From Larkinella terrae (GTDB taxonomy: Bacteria > Bacteroidota > Bacteroidia > Cytophagales > Spirosomataceae), in NCBI RefSeq assembly GCF_009668025.1, contig NZ_WJXZ01000009.1, positions 496,001 through 560,000 on the forward strand: a stretch of 64,000 bases of DNA. Reading direction: 5' to 3'. Below are positions 55,566-64,000 of this stretch, piece by piece (the stretch's first letter is position 1; every line of letters starts with the position of its first letter). The notes under the pieces are model-generated. The model ran no database searches. It had not been told where the DNA came from and saw only the letters and a list, made by a program, of their open reading frames with translations. A program made the position numbers and the translations under genes.

Positions 55566-56153
55566 ATGGCCACCCGTCCACTACCTGGTTACGCAACCGA
55601 CCTGGATTTTTACGACGCGCTCAGTCGTCGCGACGAACGAGCGTACCATAATTTGTACGCAACGGTATTTCCTTCATTTCAGCGCTGGGTACTCAGTAAC
55701 AACGGCTCCGAAATGGATGCGGAAGATGCTTTTCAAAAAGGATTAATGAATTTTCTGCTGAACATCGAAATCGGAAAGTACCAGTTGCAGTCGGGCGCGC
55801 GCATCACAACGGTGGCTTTTGAATACTGCAAACGTGTCTGGCTTACGGAATTGAAATCGGCCCGGTTTCGGTATCGCGGCAACATGCCCGACCATCTTGA
55901 CCTGGCTGATACCGTTGATGTGGAAAAAGATCTGGAGCGAATGGATGTCGTGTATGCCGTTCAGCAATCGATGCACCAACTGAAGGAAGTCTGCCGAAAC
56001 CTGCTCGAGTGGTTTTACGTGGATGAGCTTCCTTTGCGGGAAATTGCCGAACGGCTGGATATGAAAGAAGAATCCGTTAAATCAAAACGGTATCAGTGCG
56101 CCGAAAAATTAAAAGCCTATTACCGGCAGACGACTAACCAAAAAAGAATATGA
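55566..56153 (+). CDS. Sigma-70 family RNA polymerase sigma factor
   Basis: 195 residues with region 2 (FYDALSRRDERAYHNLYATVFPSFQRWVLSN, AEDAFQKGLMNFL) and region 4 (RNLLEWFYVDELPLREIAERLDMKEESVKSKRYQCAEKL). It is of ECF type (no regions 1 and 3), somewhat unlike the usual Bacteroidota SigZ/CarQ sequences in region 2. It starts a two-gene unit with the TPR membrane protein (ATGA overlap). Its regulon is unknown; the divergent spacing to the kinase operon suggests a link but does not show one. Confidence 0.87.
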   Translation: MATRPLPGYATDLDFYDALSRRDERAYHNLYATVFPSFQRWVLSNNGSEMDAEDAFQKGLMNFLLNIEIGKYQLQSGARITTVAFEYCKRVWLTELKSARFRYRGNMPDHLDLADTVDVEKDLERMDVVYAVQQSMHQLKEVCRNLLEWFYVDELPLREIAERLDMKEESVKSKRYQCAEKLKAYYRQTTNQKRI

Positions 56154-56941
56154 GACTTACTGAAGATCAGTATGAATTAATTGAGGCCTATTTAAAAAAT
56201 GAACTGTCGGCAACGGATCGGTCTACCTTCGAAGCTGATATTCAGGCCGATGCTCAACTTCGGACTGAGATCGAGCGTCAGCGGAATCTCCGCTTGGGAT
56301 TGCGCGCCATTGGCATTACTCATGCACTCGATCAGGCCCGGATTCAGTACAAAACATCGCTGCTGGCGGCCAAATCTTCCCCCAAGCGATCAACGATTTT
56401 TCAGTCCTTTCCGGCGTGGACGTATTGGGCTGCGGCCGCTTCCATCGCGGTTGTCGTTGGTTTTGGTTACCTTGTTTATCAGGGAAATGCCAGTTGGCAG
56501 GCGGATCTGGCGTATTACGAAACGTTCCGATCGGATGCCAATGCCGATTTACTGAAAGGCTTCCCGGCCGAAAACGTTTCTTCCGAAACCAAGGTTACCT
56601 TTTTGGATGCTTTTAAAAACTACAAGGCGGGTAACTACGATGCGGTTATTGAACGACTGAAAAATTTACCCCTTGATAAACAAACGGTTCACTACAAAGA
56701 CTTTCTTCTGGGGTTGAGTTACCTCTCCAACGACCAACCCGTCGAAGCCGTTCCGCTCTTGACGAAAGCACAGCAAACGCCGTCGCCCGAGCTCCGCCAG
56801 AAAGCCGTCTGGTTTTTAGCACTGGCCTACGTAAAGATGAATGAAAAAGAGCAGGCTATCCCCATTCTGAAGCAAATCAGCGCGGATAAAATGAATCCTT
56901 TTCAATCGCTGGCCCAGAAGGTACTCCGGAAGATTCAGTGA
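56150..56941 (+). CDS. Membrane TPR protein, anti-sigma-like
   Basis: 263 residues. The cytoplasmic N-terminal 70 residues (MRLTEDQYELIEAYLKNELSATDRSTFEADI) resemble anti-sigma factor N termini. One membrane helix follows (YWAAAASIAVVVGFGYLVY, about 89-107) and then a periplasmic TPR-like region (about 150-260: AFKNYKAGNYDAVIERLKNL, VPLLTKAQQTPSPEL, AIPILKQISADK). The start overlaps the sigma-factor stop by four bases (ATGA), typical of sigma/anti-sigma pairs. Anti-sigma function is inferred from position and topology. Confidence 0.75.
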   Translation: MRLTEDQYELIEAYLKNELSATDRSTFEADIQADAQLRTEIERQRNLRLGLRAIGITHALDQARIQYKTSLLAAKSSPKRSTIFQSFPAWTYWAAAASIAVVVGFGYLVYQGNASWQADLAYYETFRSDANADLLKGFPAENVSSETKVTFLDAFKNYKAGNYDAVIERLKNLPLDKQTVHYKDFLLGLSYLSNDQPVEAVPLLTKAQQTPSPELRQKAVWFLALAYVKMNEKEQAIPILKQISADKMNPFQSLAQKVLRKIQ

Positions 56942-56949
56942 AAACCGGT

Positions 56950-58611
56950 TTATTGAGTATAAAGCGCCTGAATATCACTGGCGGTCAACGCCCGTTTGTA
57001 AACGCGAATGTCGTCCATGGCGCCATCAAAGTAATTGGGAACGCTCTGGGATTGCGCTCCGAATTTTAAATCTCCGCCCAGACACTCATCGATTGCACTT
57101 CTCGGCAAAATTTCGCTGGTAACGACCAACACGTTATCAAAATACATCCGGGCTAACCGACCGCTGTAGGTCATCACCAGGTGATGCCAGGCGTTCTGCT
57201 GAATGTTACCGGTGAACGCAATCGTTTGCCAGCCAGCCCCGCGCTGGCAAGTACTATTCTGTTTAATATCGGCACTAACGACAAGGCCCGGGTCTGCTGC
57301 ACTTGGGTGAATCGCCGAACTATACATCTCATTCGCCCCGTCGCTAAAACGTGACTTGTTGTAAATTTGCATCCATCGGTCGACTGTTACCGGCCTGATC
57401 CAGAGGCTGATGGAAAGTTCGGCCGGGCGGAGGGTAGCGTTCTCGTCCATATAGAAATAATCATTCTGGCCATCCAGTTGAATAGCAGAGTTTACCCGAC
57501 CTTTCCGATCGGCCACAAAAGTGGGGTTATCGACCAGTTTCACATCGTTGTTGTTACCACTAACATCCAATCGTGAGCCATCAGTAAAGGAAACGCTGGC
57601 CACCAGATCCTGCGCCAGCGCATCGACCTGCGTCGTAAATGATTCCGTTGTGGGGCTGTAAATCACCTCGCCGGACGCGAGTTTGGCATAAGACCGGTAA
57701 TAATACCGGGTGTTTGAGGTGAGATCCGTTAACGAAACGGTCACATTGGTCCCGACAATCGGATTGGCTACTTTTAAGTACGGCGAATTGTTAATATCCG
57801 GTAGGGTGTTTGTCGATGAATAGCAAATTCCGTATTCAATTGCGGCTGGCATACCGGCGTTGGTAACCATAAAGCGGGCGCCTGCCGTTGAAACACCCAC
57901 ATTGACGGCCCCCATGCTGCTGACCGCCGGTTTTGAACCGGTTCGAAACGTCTGGACGGTCGAGCTGTAGCCAATCCCCTCCTGATTGGTCGCAAAACTG
58001 CGAACGTAATAAAGGGTATTTGGTGTAAGGTTGGTCGGCGTAAACGATACCGGTGTATTGAGCGGCAGTACCTTTATATTCTGAAGAACCAAAACGTCGC
58101 TTTTTCCCCTTTCAGGCACCTGGTTTGTCGAAGAATAGCAAATTCCATAACTGAGAATTTCCGCGTTGCCCGCCGACGTGATGGTCATTCCAATGGTTGC
58201 GGTGTTGATTGTAATGTCAAAAGCGGGCTGTAAACTAACGGAAGGATAAGCCGCATCCTGGACCATAACCGTACGCGACAGAATGGTTTCGTCAAGGCAG
58301 GAATTGGACAAGATAGCCCGGACCGAAAATTCGCCGGGCGACGGATAGCTGTAACTGACGGTTAAACCGCTTGTAACCGTAGAGCTGCCGTTCCCGAAAT
58401 CCCAGGTTACCTTGTCGATCTTCCCGGTACTTCCGGTGACCGAAAAATTGACATCCTTCTGTTGAATCTGAGCATCAAGGCTTCCGGCCGGTTTTCCACA
58501 ATCGCGCAGGGTTTTACTGGCGGGCAATTCCCATTCGCATCCCAGCAGGGATACGCCAAGCAGGCAAACAAAGATCAAAATTATAGTAGACGTGGATAGG
58601 GACTTCATCAT
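56950..58611 (-). CDS. PKD/LamG surface lipoprotein
   Basis: 553 residues. Lipobox SLLGC (Cys25). A PKD domain (about 45-115, IDKVTWDFGNGSSTVTSG), two FN3-like repeats (about 120-225 and 228-330, each with the phrase SYGICYSSTN or EYGICYSSTN), and a C-terminal LamG/concanavalin-like domain (about 340-550, SISLWIRPVTVDRWMQIYNKS, WHHLVMTYSGRLARMYFDN, GAMDDIRVYKRAL). Likely displayed on the outer membrane as a carbohydrate- or protein-binding factor. It is the last gene of the minus-strand operon, 33 bases after the TPR membrane protein. Confidence 0.85.
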   Translation of the reverse strand: MMKSLSTSTIILIFVCLLGVSLLGCEWELPASKTLRDCGKPAGSLDAQIQQKDVNFSVTGSTGKIDKVTWDFGNGSSTVTSGLTVSYSYPSPGEFSVRAILSNSCLDETILSRTVMVQDAAYPSVSLQPAFDITINTATIGMTITSAGNAEILSYGICYSSTNQVPERGKSDVLVLQNIKVLPLNTPVSFTPTNLTPNTLYYVRSFATNQEGIGYSSTVQTFRTGSKPAVSSMGAVNVGVSTAGARFMVTNAGMPAAIEYGICYSSTNTLPDINNSPYLKVANPIVGTNVTVSLTDLTSNTRYYYRSYAKLASGEVIYSPTTESFTTQVDALAQDLVASVSFTDGSRLDVSGNNNDVKLVDNPTFVADRKGRVNSAIQLDGQNDYFYMDENATLRPAELSISLWIRPVTVDRWMQIYNKSRFSDGANEMYSSAIHPSAADPGLVVSADIKQNSTCQRGAGWQTIAFTGNIQQNAWHHLVMTYSGRLARMYFDNVLVVTSEILPRSAIDECLGGDLKFGAQSQSVPNYFDGAMDDIRVYKRALTASDIQALYTQ

Positions 58612-58644
58612 TACTCTGAAAGATCGACGTGTGGGAATTCGAAA

Positions 58645-59556
58645 TCAGAATGAATACCGAATCGCCAGGCCCCACGAGTCCGAAGATGGCTGCCAGCTCA
58701 AAGCAGGCGGGCGGGGTTTGGGTTTGTGAAGAAACAAGTACACTTCCGCAGCTGTGGCCACTGCCGCAACTCCCAGAAAAACCGTAAACAGGCCCTGCTT
58801 CTTTTTAGCAGCATTGGCGGCCGCGTAGGCGTTATCATACTCCCGATACTCAATCGGGCTGTCGATTATGCCCGTTCCGTTCGGATCGAGCGATTGACCG
58901 ATTTGGTTCAGTGCCCTTAATTTTGATCGATAATTAGCGTGTAAAACCAGTGCCGTTACCATTGACCCAATGGCAACACTCCCGGCAGCCGCCTTCAGGC
59001 CGGTTTGTTTTGGATAAACGGGCAGCAATAGTTGGTCGATGTTCCGAACCTGCTCCCGCAAAAGCTCAGCTTTGTTTGCACTGGCAAACTCAATAGCTGT
59101 GGTATAATTATTCCGGGCATCCCGCAACTTTCCCTGATTAAAAAGCCGGTTTCCCTCCCGCTCGTAATGATCGGAAAACTGGTTTTTAGTAATGGCATCC
59201 TCCGGATTTAGATTCAACAACTGATACAACAGATCCACAACCTGCTGACTTTTGCCCTGGCTCATCGCTTCGTCAACCTGCTGGCGCAGGGCCAGCCCGG
59301 CGGCACTGGTTTCAATCTGCTTCAGGGCATAGGGATCATTTTCAAAACCGGGTACCTCAAGGCAGTTTTCATATTGCCAACGGGCTTCCAGATACTTGCC
59401 TTCCCTGAAAAAGTCGTCGCCCTTTTTTTTGTAACGGTCATACTCTTCGTCGATGACCGGCGCTGGAGTTGCGGTTCGGGCCAGCGCGGAGACTGTTGGC
59501 GGCCAAACCATAACGAGAAGAAGAATTAAGATGATGTGGTGTAGGACGTTACGCAT
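58645..59556 (-). CDS. TPR-containing membrane protein
   Basis: 303 residues: a signal peptide or N-terminal anchor (about 8-25), a TPR array (about 38-170: YKKKGDDFFREGKYLEARWQYENCLEV, GNRLFNQGKLRDARNNYTTAIEFA), then two membrane helices (about 186-204 and 255-273). The C-terminal region ends SWGLAIRYSF. It sits between the kinase and the surface lipoprotein in the operon (12 and 33 base gaps) and may be the kinase's membrane partner. Confidence 0.78.
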   Translation of the reverse strand: MRNVLHHIILILLLVMVWPPTVSALARTATPAPVIDEEYDRYKKKGDDFFREGKYLEARWQYENCLEVPGFENDPYALKQIETSAAGLALRQQVDEAMSQGKSQQVVDLLYQLLNLNPEDAITKNQFSDHYEREGNRLFNQGKLRDARNNYTTAIEFASANKAELLREQVRNIDQLLLPVYPKQTGLKAAAGSVAIGSMVTALVLHANYRSKLRALNQIGQSLDPNGTGIIDSPIEYREYDNAYAAANAAKKKQGLFTVFLGVAAVATAAEVYLFLHKPKPRPPALSWQPSSDSWGLAIRYSF

Positions 59557-59568
59557 ATCGTTTGAAAA

Positions 59569-61746
59569 CTAATTGGCACACTGCTTAATTTTTCGTCGAA
59601 CCTCCTCGGTGTCTTTCAGCGCCTGTGCGACCTGATACCAGCGTTTTGCCCCTTCAAATTCATCCGTAGCAAAGATCTTGTTGGCTTTGTTCAGGTAGGT
59701 CAGGTAGGCAATTTCGGCTTTAGCCGTCATCAGGCCATGTTCTTTCGCAAGTACCTGCGCCCTGTTGAAGGAGGCAATGGCTTTAACTTTATCATTCCCG
59801 GTTTTGATGGCGTTCACCCCCTCTTCCACCAGTTGATCGTATTGTTCCTGTTTTTCTTTCAATAGGGCTTCTTTCGATTCAGGTTTTGCTTCATCCGGTT
59901 TCACTTCGGTCGACGCAGCCAAGGTTCTGGCAGTGGTTCCGGCAGCCTGCCCGATCGAGTCGGTTTTTGATTCGGCGGGCTTAATCGTTTGCGCTTTTTT
60001 CAGGGACGCGTCGTACAAAAACCGGACATCCCGGCGCGTTGGATCGAGCAGCAAAGCACTTCTGGTCAACACAATGGCGCCATCAAACTCTTTTCGCCGG
60101 AAAGCCAGTCGGGCCTTATTGAGAGCCACATTGATTCGCTTCGTCAGGGCGTCTTTCGTCTCACCGGGTTGCGATTTCAGAACCGCTGGCTCCGCATTTA
60201 ACCCTGATTCCGGTTTCGCCAAAACCGTTGGAAAATCCCCTTTCGTTGGGGTCGGCTTAGCTGATTCAGCCGGACTTTTCAGGTAAAAAAACAATACGAT
60301 AGCGCTGAAACCAGCCGCCACCGGACCCACCAGACGCCACGGAAAAGCCCGATGCACCAATTGAACTCCGGGTTGCAAAACCGCAGTTGAAGACGAGTCG
60401 TCAAGTTGTAAACCCGGTCTTCCTACCTGCGGAGTTGTTCCGGTTTCAACAAATAAAACCGGTTGCGTCGCGCTCTGGGGAGTTGTTACCTCTGACGGCA
60501 CATCGTAAACATCCGTTTTGTCTTCCAGATAAGCATCCGTTAATTCAGCCTCAGCCAGCACCGGTTTGGGTCGAAGTTGTTCCACGCAGGATGCCAACCC
60601 ATGAATGGCGGTTTCCAGCGTCGGGTTGAGCTGCAATACCTGCTCGTAGCGTTTTTTGGCCTGTTCAAACTGAAACTGTTCGAACAAATCACCGGCTTCG
60701 CACAGTAGGTTATAAACGTCCTGTTCCTCAAGAATCGCCCGGCATTCCGCCAGCCCTTTTTCGGCTTCCGCATGATTCTCACGAAGCGTAAGCACTTCCT
60801 CGTACAGCGAAATGGCCTGCTTGAAATCCCGCTGATCAATCTTTTTCCGGGCTTCACTGACCAATTGAGGAATTCGGTCCAGCAAATCCAGTAGCTCCTC
60901 CGCTTTGCGAACCCGCTCATGAATATCCCGGACCAGACAGCGCTGAATCATGCTGCGATACGGATCGCTCAGCTGGCTGAGTTGAGCGGGCAAATCCACC
61001 GTCACGATTTTCTTTTCAATCTCGCGCCGGGCCGACTGTTCGGTCGCATTCCTGAGATCCGCCCGGAACGGTTTTTCCCCCGTCAGCATTTCGTACAAAA
61101 TGATTCCAAACGCCCACAGATCGAGGTTAAAGCTGACCTTGCTGCCTTCAATCTGCTCCGGGGCTTTGTACGAAGGCGTCCCCCGGCCATCGCTCAGGTC
61201 AAAATCCGAGCTGTCGAGTTCGTCGTCACTGACTAATTTACTTAAGCCAAAATCGGCAATTTTGGGAATAAACCGGCCGGTATGGTCGCGGGAAATGAGG
61301 ATATTGGATGGCTTAAAGTCGCGGTGAACGATCCGGTTCCGGTGCAGGTGCTGCAACCCCAGCAAAATTCCCTGGGTTATTTCGTAAAGCTGAACCGGCG
61401 TTAAGGTTTCCCGTTTCAGCAAATCCGCCAGATTGCCGTCCGGGTAATACTTCATGATGGCAAAATCGCTGATGCTGGTATCGGTTTCCAGGCGGTAACA
61501 GGCGTCGTAGCGGGCAATATTGGCCTGTCGGGGCACGCGCTGGGCCAGACTCACTTCGGCTTGCAGGGATTTGGCATCGTTGCCCTTAAATTCACTGACT
61601 TTAATGGCAACCCATTCCGTTTCAAGCTGGTCCTCGACTTTTATGACACGACCGTATGAACCACTGCCCAATTGGGCCCCTTTGTCATTGGGGCGAATGG
61701 GGTAGCGTCGTTTAAATTCCTGGAACGTAGTAAACGTCGCGGTCAT
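59569..61746 (-). CDS. Membrane serine/threonine protein kinase with TPR domain
   Basis: 725 residues. The kinase domain (about 24-290) is complete: GSGSYG (27-32), Lys49 in VAIKV, HRDFKPSN (141-148), DFGLSK (165-170) and KAPEQ (194-198). A cytoplasmic TPR-like region follows (about 295-395), a membrane helix at about 471-489, and a periplasmic TPR region (about 530-720: ALNKARLAFRRKEFDGAIVLTRSALLLDPTRRD). It should phosphorylate Ser/Thr of partners read by the FHA protein encoded in the same operon and reversed by the PP2C phosphatase. Confidence 0.93.
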   Translation of the reverse strand: MTATFTTFQEFKRRYPIRPNDKGAQLGSGSYGRVIKVEDQLETEWVAIKVSEFKGNDAKSLQAEVSLAQRVPRQANIARYDACYRLETDTSISDFAIMKYYPDGNLADLLKRETLTPVQLYEITQGILLGLQHLHRNRIVHRDFKPSNILISRDHTGRFIPKIADFGLSKLVSDDELDSSDFDLSDGRGTPSYKAPEQIEGSKVSFNLDLWAFGIILYEMLTGEKPFRADLRNATEQSARREIEKKIVTVDLPAQLSQLSDPYRSMIQRCLVRDIHERVRKAEELLDLLDRIPQLVSEARKKIDQRDFKQAISLYEEVLTLRENHAEAEKGLAECRAILEEQDVYNLLCEAGDLFEQFQFEQAKKRYEQVLQLNPTLETAIHGLASCVEQLRPKPVLAEAELTDAYLEDKTDVYDVPSEVTTPQSATQPVLFVETGTTPQVGRPGLQLDDSSSTAVLQPGVQLVHRAFPWRLVGPVAAGFSAIVLFFYLKSPAESAKPTPTKGDFPTVLAKPESGLNAEPAVLKSQPGETKDALTKRINVALNKARLAFRRKEFDGAIVLTRSALLLDPTRRDVRFLYDASLKKAQTIKPAESKTDSIGQAAGTTARTLAASTEVKPDEAKPESKEALLKEKQEQYDQLVEEGVNAIKTGNDKVKAIASFNRAQVLAKEHGLMTAKAEIAYLTYLNKANKIFATDEFEGAKRWYQVAQALKDTEEVRRKIKQCAN

Positions 61747-61795
61747 AAGGTCACACTTACACTACTCAGTATATATTACTCAGCATATTGCTTCT

Positions 61796-62536
61796 TCAAA
61801 GATAAGATAAAGCCAGATTATCTGAAAAACGTCCATAAAAAACCGGTGCCTGTTTTCCCTTTGTGGTCAACCGAACTTTGGGCGACACATACCGGTGCAG
61901 TTCACGGATGGTTACAATATGGTCATGATCCAAATCAGCGCGTCCGTTGAGTCCTTTCAGCAAATAATGCGTAAACGTTCCGCCCGCCAACCGGCTCGAT
62001 TCCACCGCATCCTGAGTTGACCGACTCGCCAGTAACATTGCCACATTACTCCCCTTCCCGGCGTTCTTCGTAATGGATTCCGCGGCCGTACGCTGGCTGG
62101 CGGGTTGGGTCATGCTGCCCGACAGGCAGGCATCCGCAATGCACAGTTTTGTCAATGCCTTTGATTCATGAAAAGCGGCTTTGATGGTCCGGTGCGTCAA
62201 CAACCGGCTCCGGTTTCCCGGAACAACATCGTAGGGCACAAAACTATCCGGTAAGCCGTGACCCGAAAAATACAGAATGACCCGATCGCTCGGCCTCGCC
62301 CTCCGAAAAACCGCCAGCGCCTGCTGAATGGTTGCGCAGGTAGCCTGCCGGTTTATCAAAAGCCGAATATTCGAACCCGGAACCTCTCCTCCCGGCTTGC
62401 TTTTCAGAAACTGAACGACCTGCCGGGCGTCGCGATCCGCAAACCGCAAATCTCCCGTTGCGTACGAAAGTGCCTGGTAATCAGAAATTCCCACAATAAC
62501 GGCGTACGTTTGACCGGTTTTAGATGAGGTATCCAT
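61796..62536 (-). CDS. Caspase-fold (peptidase C14/metacaspase-like) protease
   Basis: 246 residues from ATG 62536 (MDTSSKTGQTYAVIVG); a hydrophobic in-frame stretch upstream lies within the PP2C gene's 3' end. The caspase dyad is visible: His93 in ILYFSGHGLP and Cys137 in CIADACLSG. The preceding strands and the DLRFADRDARQVVQFL helix match the fold. A protein of this size is a single protease domain without an obvious pro-domain. It lies between a kinase and a phosphatase gene. Caspase-like proteases in bacterial conflict systems cleave host proteins after a trigger. Confidence 0.9.
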   Translation of the reverse strand: MDTSSKTGQTYAVIVGISDYQALSYATGDLRFADRDARQVVQFLKSKPGGEVPGSNIRLLINRQATCATIQQALAVFRRARPSDRVILYFSGHGLPDSFVPYDVVPGNRSRLLTHRTIKAAFHESKALTKLCIADACLSGSMTQPASQRTAAESITKNAGKGSNVAMLLASRSTQDAVESSRLAGGTFTHYLLKGLNGRADLDHDHIVTIRELHRYVSPKVRLTTKGKQAPVFYGRFSDNLALSYL

Positions 62537-62568
62537 GTACCAAACCCACAAACTAAGCAGCCAGTACG

Positions 62569-63378
62569 TTACCATCCTGTTCGGGATTCAGAAACCGCCG
62601 TTGATTCGGTAACATTCTTTACGCCAATCAGATAACCGGAGTAATTGTCTTTGGTCTGTTCATTACAAACCGCAACCAGCGAAGCTACCTTGGCCTGATC
62701 GGGCATGTTGCCGAAAAGGATGGTTTCCAGTACGTAATCATCGATTTGTTCCAGCACGCCATCCGTACACATAAAGAAATAATCTCCCGCCCGAACGTCC
62801 GTCAGAAAATGCAAATCCGGAACTGCACGGGCGGCCGTTTCCGGGCTCTCCTGCGAGTTTAAAACGACGGCCCGGCTGAGCCGGTTTCTCCAGGGATGGG
62901 TCAGCGCCTGGGTTGCAGTGATAATTCCGGCTTCGACCATGTCATTTACCTGCTTGTGATCTTTCGTTCGGAAAATGATTTTTCCTTCCCGGAGCTGATA
63001 AATCCGGCTATCGCCCAAATGCGCAACGGTTACGCCATGCTGATGAAATTGCAATAAGGTGAGTGTCGACCCCATGCGATTGACGAGCGGATGCTGATTC
63101 AGATAGTCGTAATACGTTTCATACACCTGTTCGAGCGCAGCCTGCAGGTGCACGATGTCAAAAACCGGATAACCCATCGACCTGGCATAATCAGCCACGC
63201 CATGACACAACAGCTGACTGGCGACCTCGCCTTTGTCGGCTCCGCCCATTCCGTCGCACACCATGAACAACTCGGTTTGTTCGTCGGCGGCATTTTCACC
63301 CGGATAGAGCGTATCCTGATTGATGGTCCGCTGGCCGATGTGGGAAAAAGCAAAGGGTAAATTGGGCTGAATCTGCAT
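62569..63378 (-). CDS. PP2C-family protein phosphatase
   Basis: 269 residues with the PP2C metal motifs: GQRTINQDTL (15-24), DGMGGADKG (42-50), HLGDSRIYQL, FFMCTDGVLEQI and the final KDNYSGYLI. It removes phosphate from Ser/Thr of the kinase's targets. Gap to the FHA gene is three bases, and to the caspase gene 32 bases. Confidence 0.93.
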   Translation of the reverse strand: MQIQPNLPFAFSHIGQRTINQDTLYPGENAADEQTELFMVCDGMGGADKGEVASQLLCHGVADYARSMGYPVFDIVHLQAALEQVYETYYDYLNQHPLVNRMGSTLTLLQFHQHGVTVAHLGDSRIYQLREGKIIFRTKDHKQVNDMVEAGIITATQALTHPWRNRLSRAVVLNSQESPETAARAVPDLHFLTDVRAGDYFFMCTDGVLEQIDDYVLETILFGNMPDQAKVASLVAVCNEQTKDNYSGYLIGVKNVTESTAVSESRTGW

Positions 63379-63381
63379 GGA

Positions 63382-63984
63382 CTACTCGGTACGATCGGGG
63401 TTAAACGACAAGTCAACTTTATAGGTATCGAGCATCGTCGACGGAATAAAATAATGAGTCAACCGAAAACGATCGACTCCGCCCAGGGTAATGACACTCT
63501 CGTGATCCACATCAATCAGCTCCATTTTTTGCAAAGGCGTCTCGTTAAGCAGGGTTCCATTCAGACTGGAATGCAACTGCCGCAGTTCGCCATCCAGAAC
63601 GCCGTCCTGAAGCTGGTAACGCAACCGGCCGCGCCATTTGTCGAACGAAACGGTAAGGGTGCAGTGCCGGCGGCTGATGAAACAGCGGCCATTGTGTTGA
63701 AACCGCTCGATCTGAACCGTACATGAATCAGCGGTGCCGATACTGTTCTGTCCGAATTGCAGCGGGTATATCCGCCCGGGTTTGCCGATGTACGTCAAAT
63801 GCCCGAATTCCGGCAAGCCCTGCACAATGGCTTCGTCGTAGTGAAACGCCGTCTGCAGAATATTAACCGCTCCGCATCCCACGTGTGAGCAGGTAATGGT
63901 TCCCCGTTCGGCATCGGCCATCCGAACCATGATGCGCCGGCCACATTGCTGGCAGGCGATAAGCGTCATTTTAAACCCGCTCAT
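63382..63984 (-). CDS. FHA-domain protein with N-terminal zinc ribbon
   Basis: About 200 residues. The N terminus is a CX2C...CX4C zinc-ribbon candidate (Cys11, Cys14, Cys32, Cys37). An FHA domain follows with QNSIGTADSCTV, ISRRHCTLTV and SLNGTLLNET, the phosphothreonine-binding Arg/Ser/Asn set. A later in-frame ATG at 63969 (MTLIACQQCG) is possible. It would recruit kinase-phosphorylated partners. It is the first visible gene of the operon and the upstream edge is at the window end. Confidence 0.9.
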   Translation of the reverse strand: MSGFKMTLIACQQCGRRIMVRMADAERGTITCSHVGCGAVNILQTAFHYDEAIVQGLPEFGHLTYIGKPGRIYPLQFGQNSIGTADSCTVQIERFQHNGRCFISRRHCTLTVSFDKWRGRLRYQLQDGVLDGELRQLHSSLNGTLLNETPLQKMELIDVDHESVITLGGVDRFRLTHYFIPSTMLDTYKVDLSFNPDRTE

Positions 63985-64000
63985 ACCGATTACTCGTTCA

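Follow-up and report, generated by a model that had tools for sequence, protein, structure and literature searches.

The 64,000-nucleotide stretch of the Larkinella terrae genome considered here (the window; contig NZ_WJXZ01000009.1, positions 496,001 to 560,000, or G000:C22:496001-560000, where G denotes a genome, G000 being that of L. terrae, and L, below, a fetched locus stretch) ends in a minus-strand operon for a Ser/Thr kinase, a PP2C phosphatase, FHA proteins and a caspase. We regard this operon, with a probability of about one half, as a trans-envelope phosphothreonine signalling module of Bacteroidota, present here in a form that carries the caspase and has no type VI secretion system (T6SS). 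At the level of sequence, the unit, its conservation, its catalytic residues and the predicted compartments of its products are clear, and the constant parts of the system are two FHA proteins, an unnamed membrane protein of the operon (U), the phosphatase and the kinase. The core FHA2-U-FHA1-PP2C-kinase, often joined by the caspase, recurs in the genomes of Larkinella, Spirosoma and Bacteroidales (Prevotella, Bacteroides), and related forms of the core that are devoid of caspase genes are often located near type VI secretion genes.

The initial annotation described six minus-strand genes, and open reading frames (ORFs) for all of them are present. They encode FHA1 (63382..63984), with a zinc-ribbon-like N-terminus and an FHA domain that reads GT in place of the usual GR; the PP2C phosphatase (62569..63378); the C14 caspase (61796..62575), predicted to be exported, with an intact His106/Cys150 dyad and an N-terminal signal-like hydrophobic segment; the Ser/Thr kinase (59569..61746), with intact catalytic motifs, TPR, one membrane-like segment at about residues 472-490 and an outer C-terminal part; and, further, a TPR protein and a lipoprotein. 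Pfam matches (FHA; PP2C_2; Peptidase_C14; Pkinase with TPR; a weak TPR; Laminin_G_3, PKD and a near-threshold fn3 in the lipoprotein) bear out the proposed reader, eraser and writer as well as the remaining assignments, and the VAIK, HRD and DFG motifs of the kinase and the SGHG and DAC motifs of the caspase were recognized by eye. The tight spacing proposed for these genes holds, with intergenic gaps of 33, 12, 49, -7 and 3 nt, except that the caspase and PP2C genes are not separated at all and overlap by 7 bases. The description of a six-gene operon was incomplete, in that two genes just past the end of the window belong to it as well: U, 5 bases before FHA1, of which only the last bases (63990..64000, minus strand) fall inside the window (full gene L009:9991-10941 on the minus strand, window coordinates 63990-64940), and FHA2, a 252-aa protein with an FHA domain, located 78 bases before U and outside the window (window coordinates 65019-65777). 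The full gene order is FHA2-U-FHA1-PP2C-caspase-kinase-TPR-lipoprotein, convergent with a gene pair, likewise conserved at this position, for an extracytoplasmic function (ECF) sigma factor and an anti-sigma-like protein.

Searching 121 genomes of the family Spirosomataceae for the caspase yielded matches at E<=1e-10 in 41 genomes, at 58 places, and the neighbours were examined at the 31 strongest of these (E<=2e-44), the 27 weaker places, mostly in long ORFs, being left out; two of the 31 are in the L. terrae genome itself, namely the window locus (L059) and a second copy (L062, on C4). PP2C and FHA1 genes are present at all 31 loci, FHA2 at 30, U and the kinase at 29 each, the TPR protein at 19 and the lipoprotein at 14. 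The core order is shared by the 20 loci of the window type (type-1), five of which (L052-L056) insert a gene for a protein of about 668 aa between caspase and kinase. The 11 loci of a second type retain the core, but the kinases beside it are different ones, or no kinase was found in the stretch. Among nine Larkinella genomes, all caspase matches at E<=1e-30 (7 places) adjoin a PP2C gene, such that the caspase is not scattered in close relatives and the view of a single unit stands; one of the 8 PP2C places (in G016) is without caspase. FHA1 and PP2C accompany the caspase in only 5 of 20 further caspase stretches from the order and are missing from the other 15, which indicates that the link is limited to one caspase subfamily and does not hold for caspases at large. 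Membership in the system, traced on a tree of 108 caspases in which deep forks are weak and some long branches are possibly misplaced, requires 3 changes, compared to 20.4 in shuffles. The clustering of the caspase with PP2C and FHA1 is beyond chance.

The same association was seen in a named genome set with one genome per species, in which 84,980 species were scanned for U with a query of five U rows, all from caspase-bearing loci; the best 80 of the 188 relatives correspond to 78 loci, some of them cut by contig ends. FHA1 is present at 74 of these, PP2C at 69, FHA2 at 66, and the caspase and the kinase at 60 each. The median gap between U and caspase is 10 nt, and same-strand neighbours no more than 60 bases apart include 39 pairs of U followed by caspase, 37 of caspase followed by FHA1 and 59 of FHA1 followed by PP2C. 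Thirteen Larkinella and Spirosoma loci partly repeat loci already fetched; the remainder are mostly from Bacteroidales (Prevotella, Bacteroides, Alistipes, Muribaculaceae, Odoribacter and others), and one locus labelled Clostridium is probably a mis-binned contig.

Three observations made along these loci deserve mention in their own right. The second copy of the core in L. terrae (L062, G000:C4:241501-261500) is divergent, comprising a kinase with Sel1 repeats, a PP2C with a WG repeat, the caspase and the nearest paralogue of the window sigma factor. Near a second-type core, a 1774-aa protein (L060:11803-17127) combines Ser/Thr kinase, AAA_16, GAF and histidine kinase domains. Finally, one genus of the order has a separate conserved caspase-domain protein of about 575 aa (domain from about residue 335; L094, L095, L097-L100, L102), with the signalling genes not in these stretches.

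The window caspase matches PF00656 with 64.5 bits; its residues His106, Cys150 and Asp148 do not vary among 41 aligned caspases, confirming the dyad noted initially, and each caspase motif is conserved in 82 of the 83 system caspases. The predicted structure (mean predicted local distance difference test, pLDDT, 89.9) has metacaspase Yca1, legumain and MALT1 as its nearest PDB folds, with Yca1 as the best Foldseek match (E 8e-11), and the PDB sequence search gave a single match, a non-caspase hydrolase at E 0.017. The Asp two residues before the catalytic Cys, invariant in the 41 rows, is compatible with cleavage after Arg or Lys, a specificity to which we take this residue to be linked, and the caspase would most likely cut after these residues. 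Compartments were judged by simple hydropathy and not by a trained predictor; by this measure, 81 of 83 system caspases have a hydrophobic 11-mer immediately ahead of the fold, versus 0/103 PP2C, 2/110 FHA1 and 2/106 FHA2 proteins. Two genomes from a single genus encode PP2C and caspase as one fused ORF (L053:8794-10398, L054:9871-11436) with a hydrophobic segment in the linker just before the caspase, for which the predicted arrangement is phosphatase inside and caspase outside. The system caspase thus appears to be exported through the inner membrane, which makes it unlikely that the kinase acts directly on a cytosolic executioner protease. Prokaryotic C14 caspases and metacaspases share the fold and the His/Cys dyad with the protein described here, and their survey mentions N-terminal helices that may be signal peptides as well as sigma-factor operons in Myxococcus (PMC3501461); the portion of that source available makes no mention of an association with FHA, PP2C, kinase and U, and FHA is absent from its main text. 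The caspase domain is also like that of the EACC1-associated caspases (NF047832), but scores 79.4 bits against a cut-off of 140.

The component that best marks the system is U, a protein of 316 aa in the window species, with one membrane-like segment, a conserved core and an acidic tail, and without a Pfam or NCBIfam match in that species. Its core reads F.EAF..AR.E.G.GG.F.W.G..Y.T, with 10 positions invariant in 15 rows, and many members carry Asp-rich repeats. The AlphaFold model of the Larkinella knui protein is confident for the core and the following beta domain and not elsewhere (mean pLDDT 68.8), and a PDB fold search with U gave no match at E<=0.001. The N-side of the membrane-like segment is the more positive one in 126 of 130 proteins at a lenient threshold (at a stricter one, several U show no segment), and U is accordingly predicted to span the inner membrane with its N-terminal tail in the cytosol. 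A core profile matched 35 of the 121 family genomes; in even samples U was found in 6 of 395 genomes of the phylum, including one (G314) that matched at E 0.001 only and had no core genes in its stretch, and in 6 of 395 genomes of the class, indicating that the system is patchy. Cleavage of U at its invariant Arg, considered as a candidate, is disfavoured, the residue being located in a confidently folded helix. A relative of U (32.5% identity over 83% of the L166 query) is also encoded in an unannotated 5-kb fecal 'Bacteriophage sp.' record (MT838606.1:1344-2174), possibly a bacterial fragment within a phage collection.

Of 147 system kinases, 120 possess a membrane-like segment after the catalytic domain, and in 96 of these its N side is the more positive one. 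The N-terminal tails of U are enriched in candidate phosphorylation motifs: the strict motif [DENKS]T.[YF][DEN] occurs 39 times, in 26 of 131 proteins, compared to 2.4 in shuffles, and a looser motif 108 times, in 80 of 131 proteins, compared to 34.6; many tails carry short repeats such as E-D-T-V-Y-D. This setting resembles that of GarA, in which an ETTS phosphorylation motif lies in an unstructured N-terminal extension (PMC5448819, in the part available). On the reader side, GR is present in 84 of 110 FHA1 proteins, counted anywhere in the protein.

Taken together, these features suggest a mechanism in which membrane kinases, with the catalytic domain inside and a TPR or Sel1-type domain outside, would sense the envelope and phosphorylate threonines in the cytosolic tail of U. 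FHA1 and FHA2 would bind the phosphorylated tail and PP2C, as expected from its family, would reset it. Because U is predicted to cross the inner membrane, joining the cytosolic FHA proteins to the periplasm, the inner phosphorylation state could be passed to its outer domain; the exported caspase would act beside U and cut a periplasmic partner, most likely after Arg or Lys, a step that would make the signal irreversible. The closest known logic is that of LapD/LapG (PMC3032545, as far as its available text goes), since in the operon, too, a cytosolic state is predicted to reach a cysteine protease in the periplasm by way of the inner membrane; the operon differs in relying on threonine phosphorylation and not on cyclic di-GMP, and on a C14 caspase in place of LapG, and Pfam found in it neither a cyclic di-GMP receptor nor a LapG-family protein. 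The signal could run inside-out, as in that system, or outside-in. The outside-to-inside signalling through phosphorylation proposed at the outset is plausible, but its centring on the lipoprotein and the TPR protein is not supported, as these occur in just 14 and 19 of the 31 loci.

These two proteins are clade-specific, and the idea that they are essential parts was rejected. The lipoprotein (56950..58611, minus strand) has a lipobox, LLGC, recognized by eye, and PKD, fn3-like and LamG domains, and is a surface accessory; the TPR protein (58645..59556, minus strand) is an accessory with a hydrophobic segment at the N-terminus and two additional membrane-like ones. Surface-type proteins accompany many other loci: relatives of a BspA-type leucine-rich repeat (LRR) protein from L166 occur at 29 of the 78 named-set loci. 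Relatives of a small unknown protein are found at 28 of the 78. At L124, where there is no caspase, the core is followed by a large PKD protein with a type IX secretion system (T9SS) sorting tail (by Pfam), and also by two products named by eye, one small and lipoprotein-like, the other a PorV-like outer-membrane protein; L125-L128 resemble L124 by gene lengths, and the large protein is homologous in L127 and L128. It could be imagined from such neighbours that inner phosphorylation gates a periplasmic protease, and that this protease sets free a surface protein encoded at the locus (LamG lipoprotein, BspA-LRR or PKD protein), in the manner of the Lap system. The protease predicted outside, the readers inside and U across the membrane would all fit, as would the known LapD/LapG precedent; no cleavage site or surface substrate was identified, however, and the surface partner varies by clade, so that we consider this form of surface control doubtful.

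Transcription is a probable further output of the trans-envelope module, judging from gene linkage: through the adjacent ECF sigma pair in Spirosomataceae and through a LytTR gene in Bacteroidales, relatives of the L166 LytTR protein being present at 44 of the 78 named-set loci. In the window the sigma factor (55566..56153, plus strand) is followed by the anti-sigma-like protein (56150..56941, plus strand), which has one membrane-like segment (93-109) and is predicted to be N-in with its TPR part outside. Paralogy supports a link of the sigma factor to the system: its closest paralogue in the L. terrae genome (128 bits, versus 67 for the next) lies directly behind the second caspase copy, at L062, and sigma factors directly follow the caspase at L061 and L067 as well. 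The sigma factor is present at 22 of the 31 caspase-anchored family loci and at 11 of the 78 named-set loci. A search for the Bacteroidota promoter consensus before FHA2 found none, the sole match in L009 lying elsewhere, at chance level. The linkage and the topology of the window protein invite the alternative explanation that the membrane anti-sigma next door is cleaved in its outer part by the exported caspase, which would free the ECF sigma factor. We nevertheless hold regulated proteolysis of this kind to be unlikely as the purpose of the system, given the rarity of the sigma factor in the named set and the finding that the anti-sigma-like partners of both L061 and L062 have no membrane segment.

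Several of the results weigh against the proposed trans-envelope module. The anti-sigma-like partner of the second copy, which has no membrane segment, is one; in addition, no cleavage site was identified in U. The caspase, which is missing from 18 of the 78 named-set loci and from 17 of the 46 family U loci, is not the sole output, and the named-set query, by its composition, favours caspase-bearing loci. Since the relatives share ancestry, the comparisons with shuffles overstate significance. The enrichment of signal-peptidase-like motifs ahead of the caspase is no more than mild (66 of 83, compared to 51.7 in shuffles), so that the caspase may be membrane-anchored and not soluble. A membrane-like segment is found in 62 of 103 PP2C proteins (N side more positive in 42), the window PP2C having none. 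The strict tail motif is confined to 26 of 131 U tails, and U of the window species itself (L009:9991-10941) has Gln at the candidate Thr, which L. rosea and L. knui keep; the tail model is therefore weakest in the window species. FHA1 of the window clade, moreover, is without the usual GR, and the Gln in the U tail and the GT in FHA1 may mark a loss of phospho-binding in this branch.

The strongest competing explanation emerges from the genomic surroundings of the core. The type VI gene tssC is present in 34 of the 121 family genomes, and 16 of the 46 family U loci are located no more than 40 kb from it, compared to 0.55 expected; among genomes, which are not independent, 26 of the 35 with U are tssC-positive, versus 8 of the 86 others. 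The proximity involves 5 of the 29 U loci with caspase (L060, L063, L065, L066, L069) and 11 of the 17 without, one of the latter (G033:C288) resembling the contig-end piece of a caspase-bearing locus; the figure for L065 assumes that its 75,895-base contig, marked linear in the record, is circular, the counts being otherwise 15/46 and 4/29. At L129-L132, where the caspase is missing throughout, genes related to those for one ClpV-type ATPase, TssB, TssC and Hcp lie in divergent orientation to the core, and at L130 Pfam matches to TssB, TssC, Hcp, VgrG-type and gp25 proteins follow the ATPase gene. This ATPase, which has relatives at 8 of 149 loci, was named via those in L066 (63% identical, placed by Pfam) and L135, and called ClpV and not ClpB from its context. 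It is conceivable, on these grounds, that the core represents a threonine-phosphorylation control of the Bacteroidota T6SSiii, analogous to the T6SS threonine phosphorylation pathway of Pseudomonas (PpkA/PppA/Fha), with the window copy derived and its caspase an accessory. A membrane Ser/Thr kinase, PP2C and FHA in one cluster are common to both, but the operon adds a second FHA protein, U and the exported caspase. In the family-wide search tssC is absent from the window genome (among the nine Larkinella genomes it is found in G016 alone) and lies within 40 kb of none of the window-type loci, several of which are on short contigs, and relatives of the L130 ClpV, TssB and TssC were not found at the 78 named-set loci within a reach of up to 10 kb on each side. 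We therefore entertain T6SSiii control only tentatively as the general role of the core. We know of no description of a post-translational control layer for T6SSiii. The words kinase, FHA, phosphatase and phosphorylation are absent from a paper on Bacteroidales T6SS (PMC4714493).

The FHA-U core shares a stretch with ClpV-type ATPase genes at L129-L132, L135, L137, L066 and L069, and at L137 it is split from its PP2C and kinase, which are located in L142. A caspase-form core resides, together with vWA, WG-repeat and OmpA genes, on a 75.9-kb plasmid record of Runella rosea (L065 / L221, NZ_CP030851.1), and a contig of that length, G063:C2, also carries TssC. L134, again without caspase, has ordinary metabolic genes nearby. 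One fixed alternative effector was sought in the caspase-less loci (L124-L128, L129-L132, L134) and not found.

The initial annotation also placed the operon among possible defence or self-killing systems, to neither of which any link was found. Caspase domains do occur in bacterial conflict systems (PMC7159879, PMC8195603), although the FHA, PP2C and kinase passages in the available parts of these papers describe other such systems. In PADLOC the kinase matches 34 models at E<=0.01, in a generic manner, with mad6 and PD-T4-6 the best among the matches listed, and the caspase and PP2C match one model each, without the rest of any system; FHA1, the TPR protein and the lipoprotein had no match at E<=0.01, and ten other proteins (U, FHA2, the sigma factor, the anti-sigma-like protein and the products of six flanking genes) matched no family at E<=0.001. 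With PADLOC support limited to the kinase, caspase and PP2C domains, the defence-island reading was rejected. The five flanking genes scanned for domains are ordinary (a methyltransferase, two alpha/beta hydrolases, an EVE domain protein and an AraC protein), with no match to a T6SS family. The NTP-dependent ternary conflict systems (PMC7159879, as far as available) have the caspase domain in common with the operon, in which Pfam at E<=0.01 detected no NTPase, vWA/MoxR or effector-associated domain; vWA genes were seen beside two relatives inspected, L221 and L066. With the caspase predicted to be exported, phage defence or programmed cell death is a highly improbable function. The available portion of PMC4933709 does not mention kinase or FHA, and literature searches aimed at the cluster, at exported caspases and at analogues, most subscription journals being outside their reach, found no description of the cluster among the matches listed, which is no proof that none has been published.

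In its fullest form the proposed trans-envelope module would be a phosphorylation-driven counterpart of LapD/LapG, in which phosphothreonine on U and two FHA readers switch an exported caspase, together with a caspase-less relay that controls the Bacteroidota T6SS; this extension we put forward as a speculation, possible at best. That the core so often lies close to T6SSiii genes points to post-translational control as a further layer in this type of secretion. Bacterial caspases are mostly discussed as cytosolic executioners or stress proteases. A conserved caspase subfamily tied to a kinase, a phosphatase and two phosphothreonine readers, and predicted to lie on the far side of the membrane, would provide a setting for roles outside cell death, and U can serve as a marker for locating the system in genomes from the gut and from the environment alike. 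If the proposal is correct, a single module would link envelope sensing, contact-dependent secretion and periplasmic proteolysis by a caspase, from environmental Cytophagales to gut Prevotella and Bacteroides.

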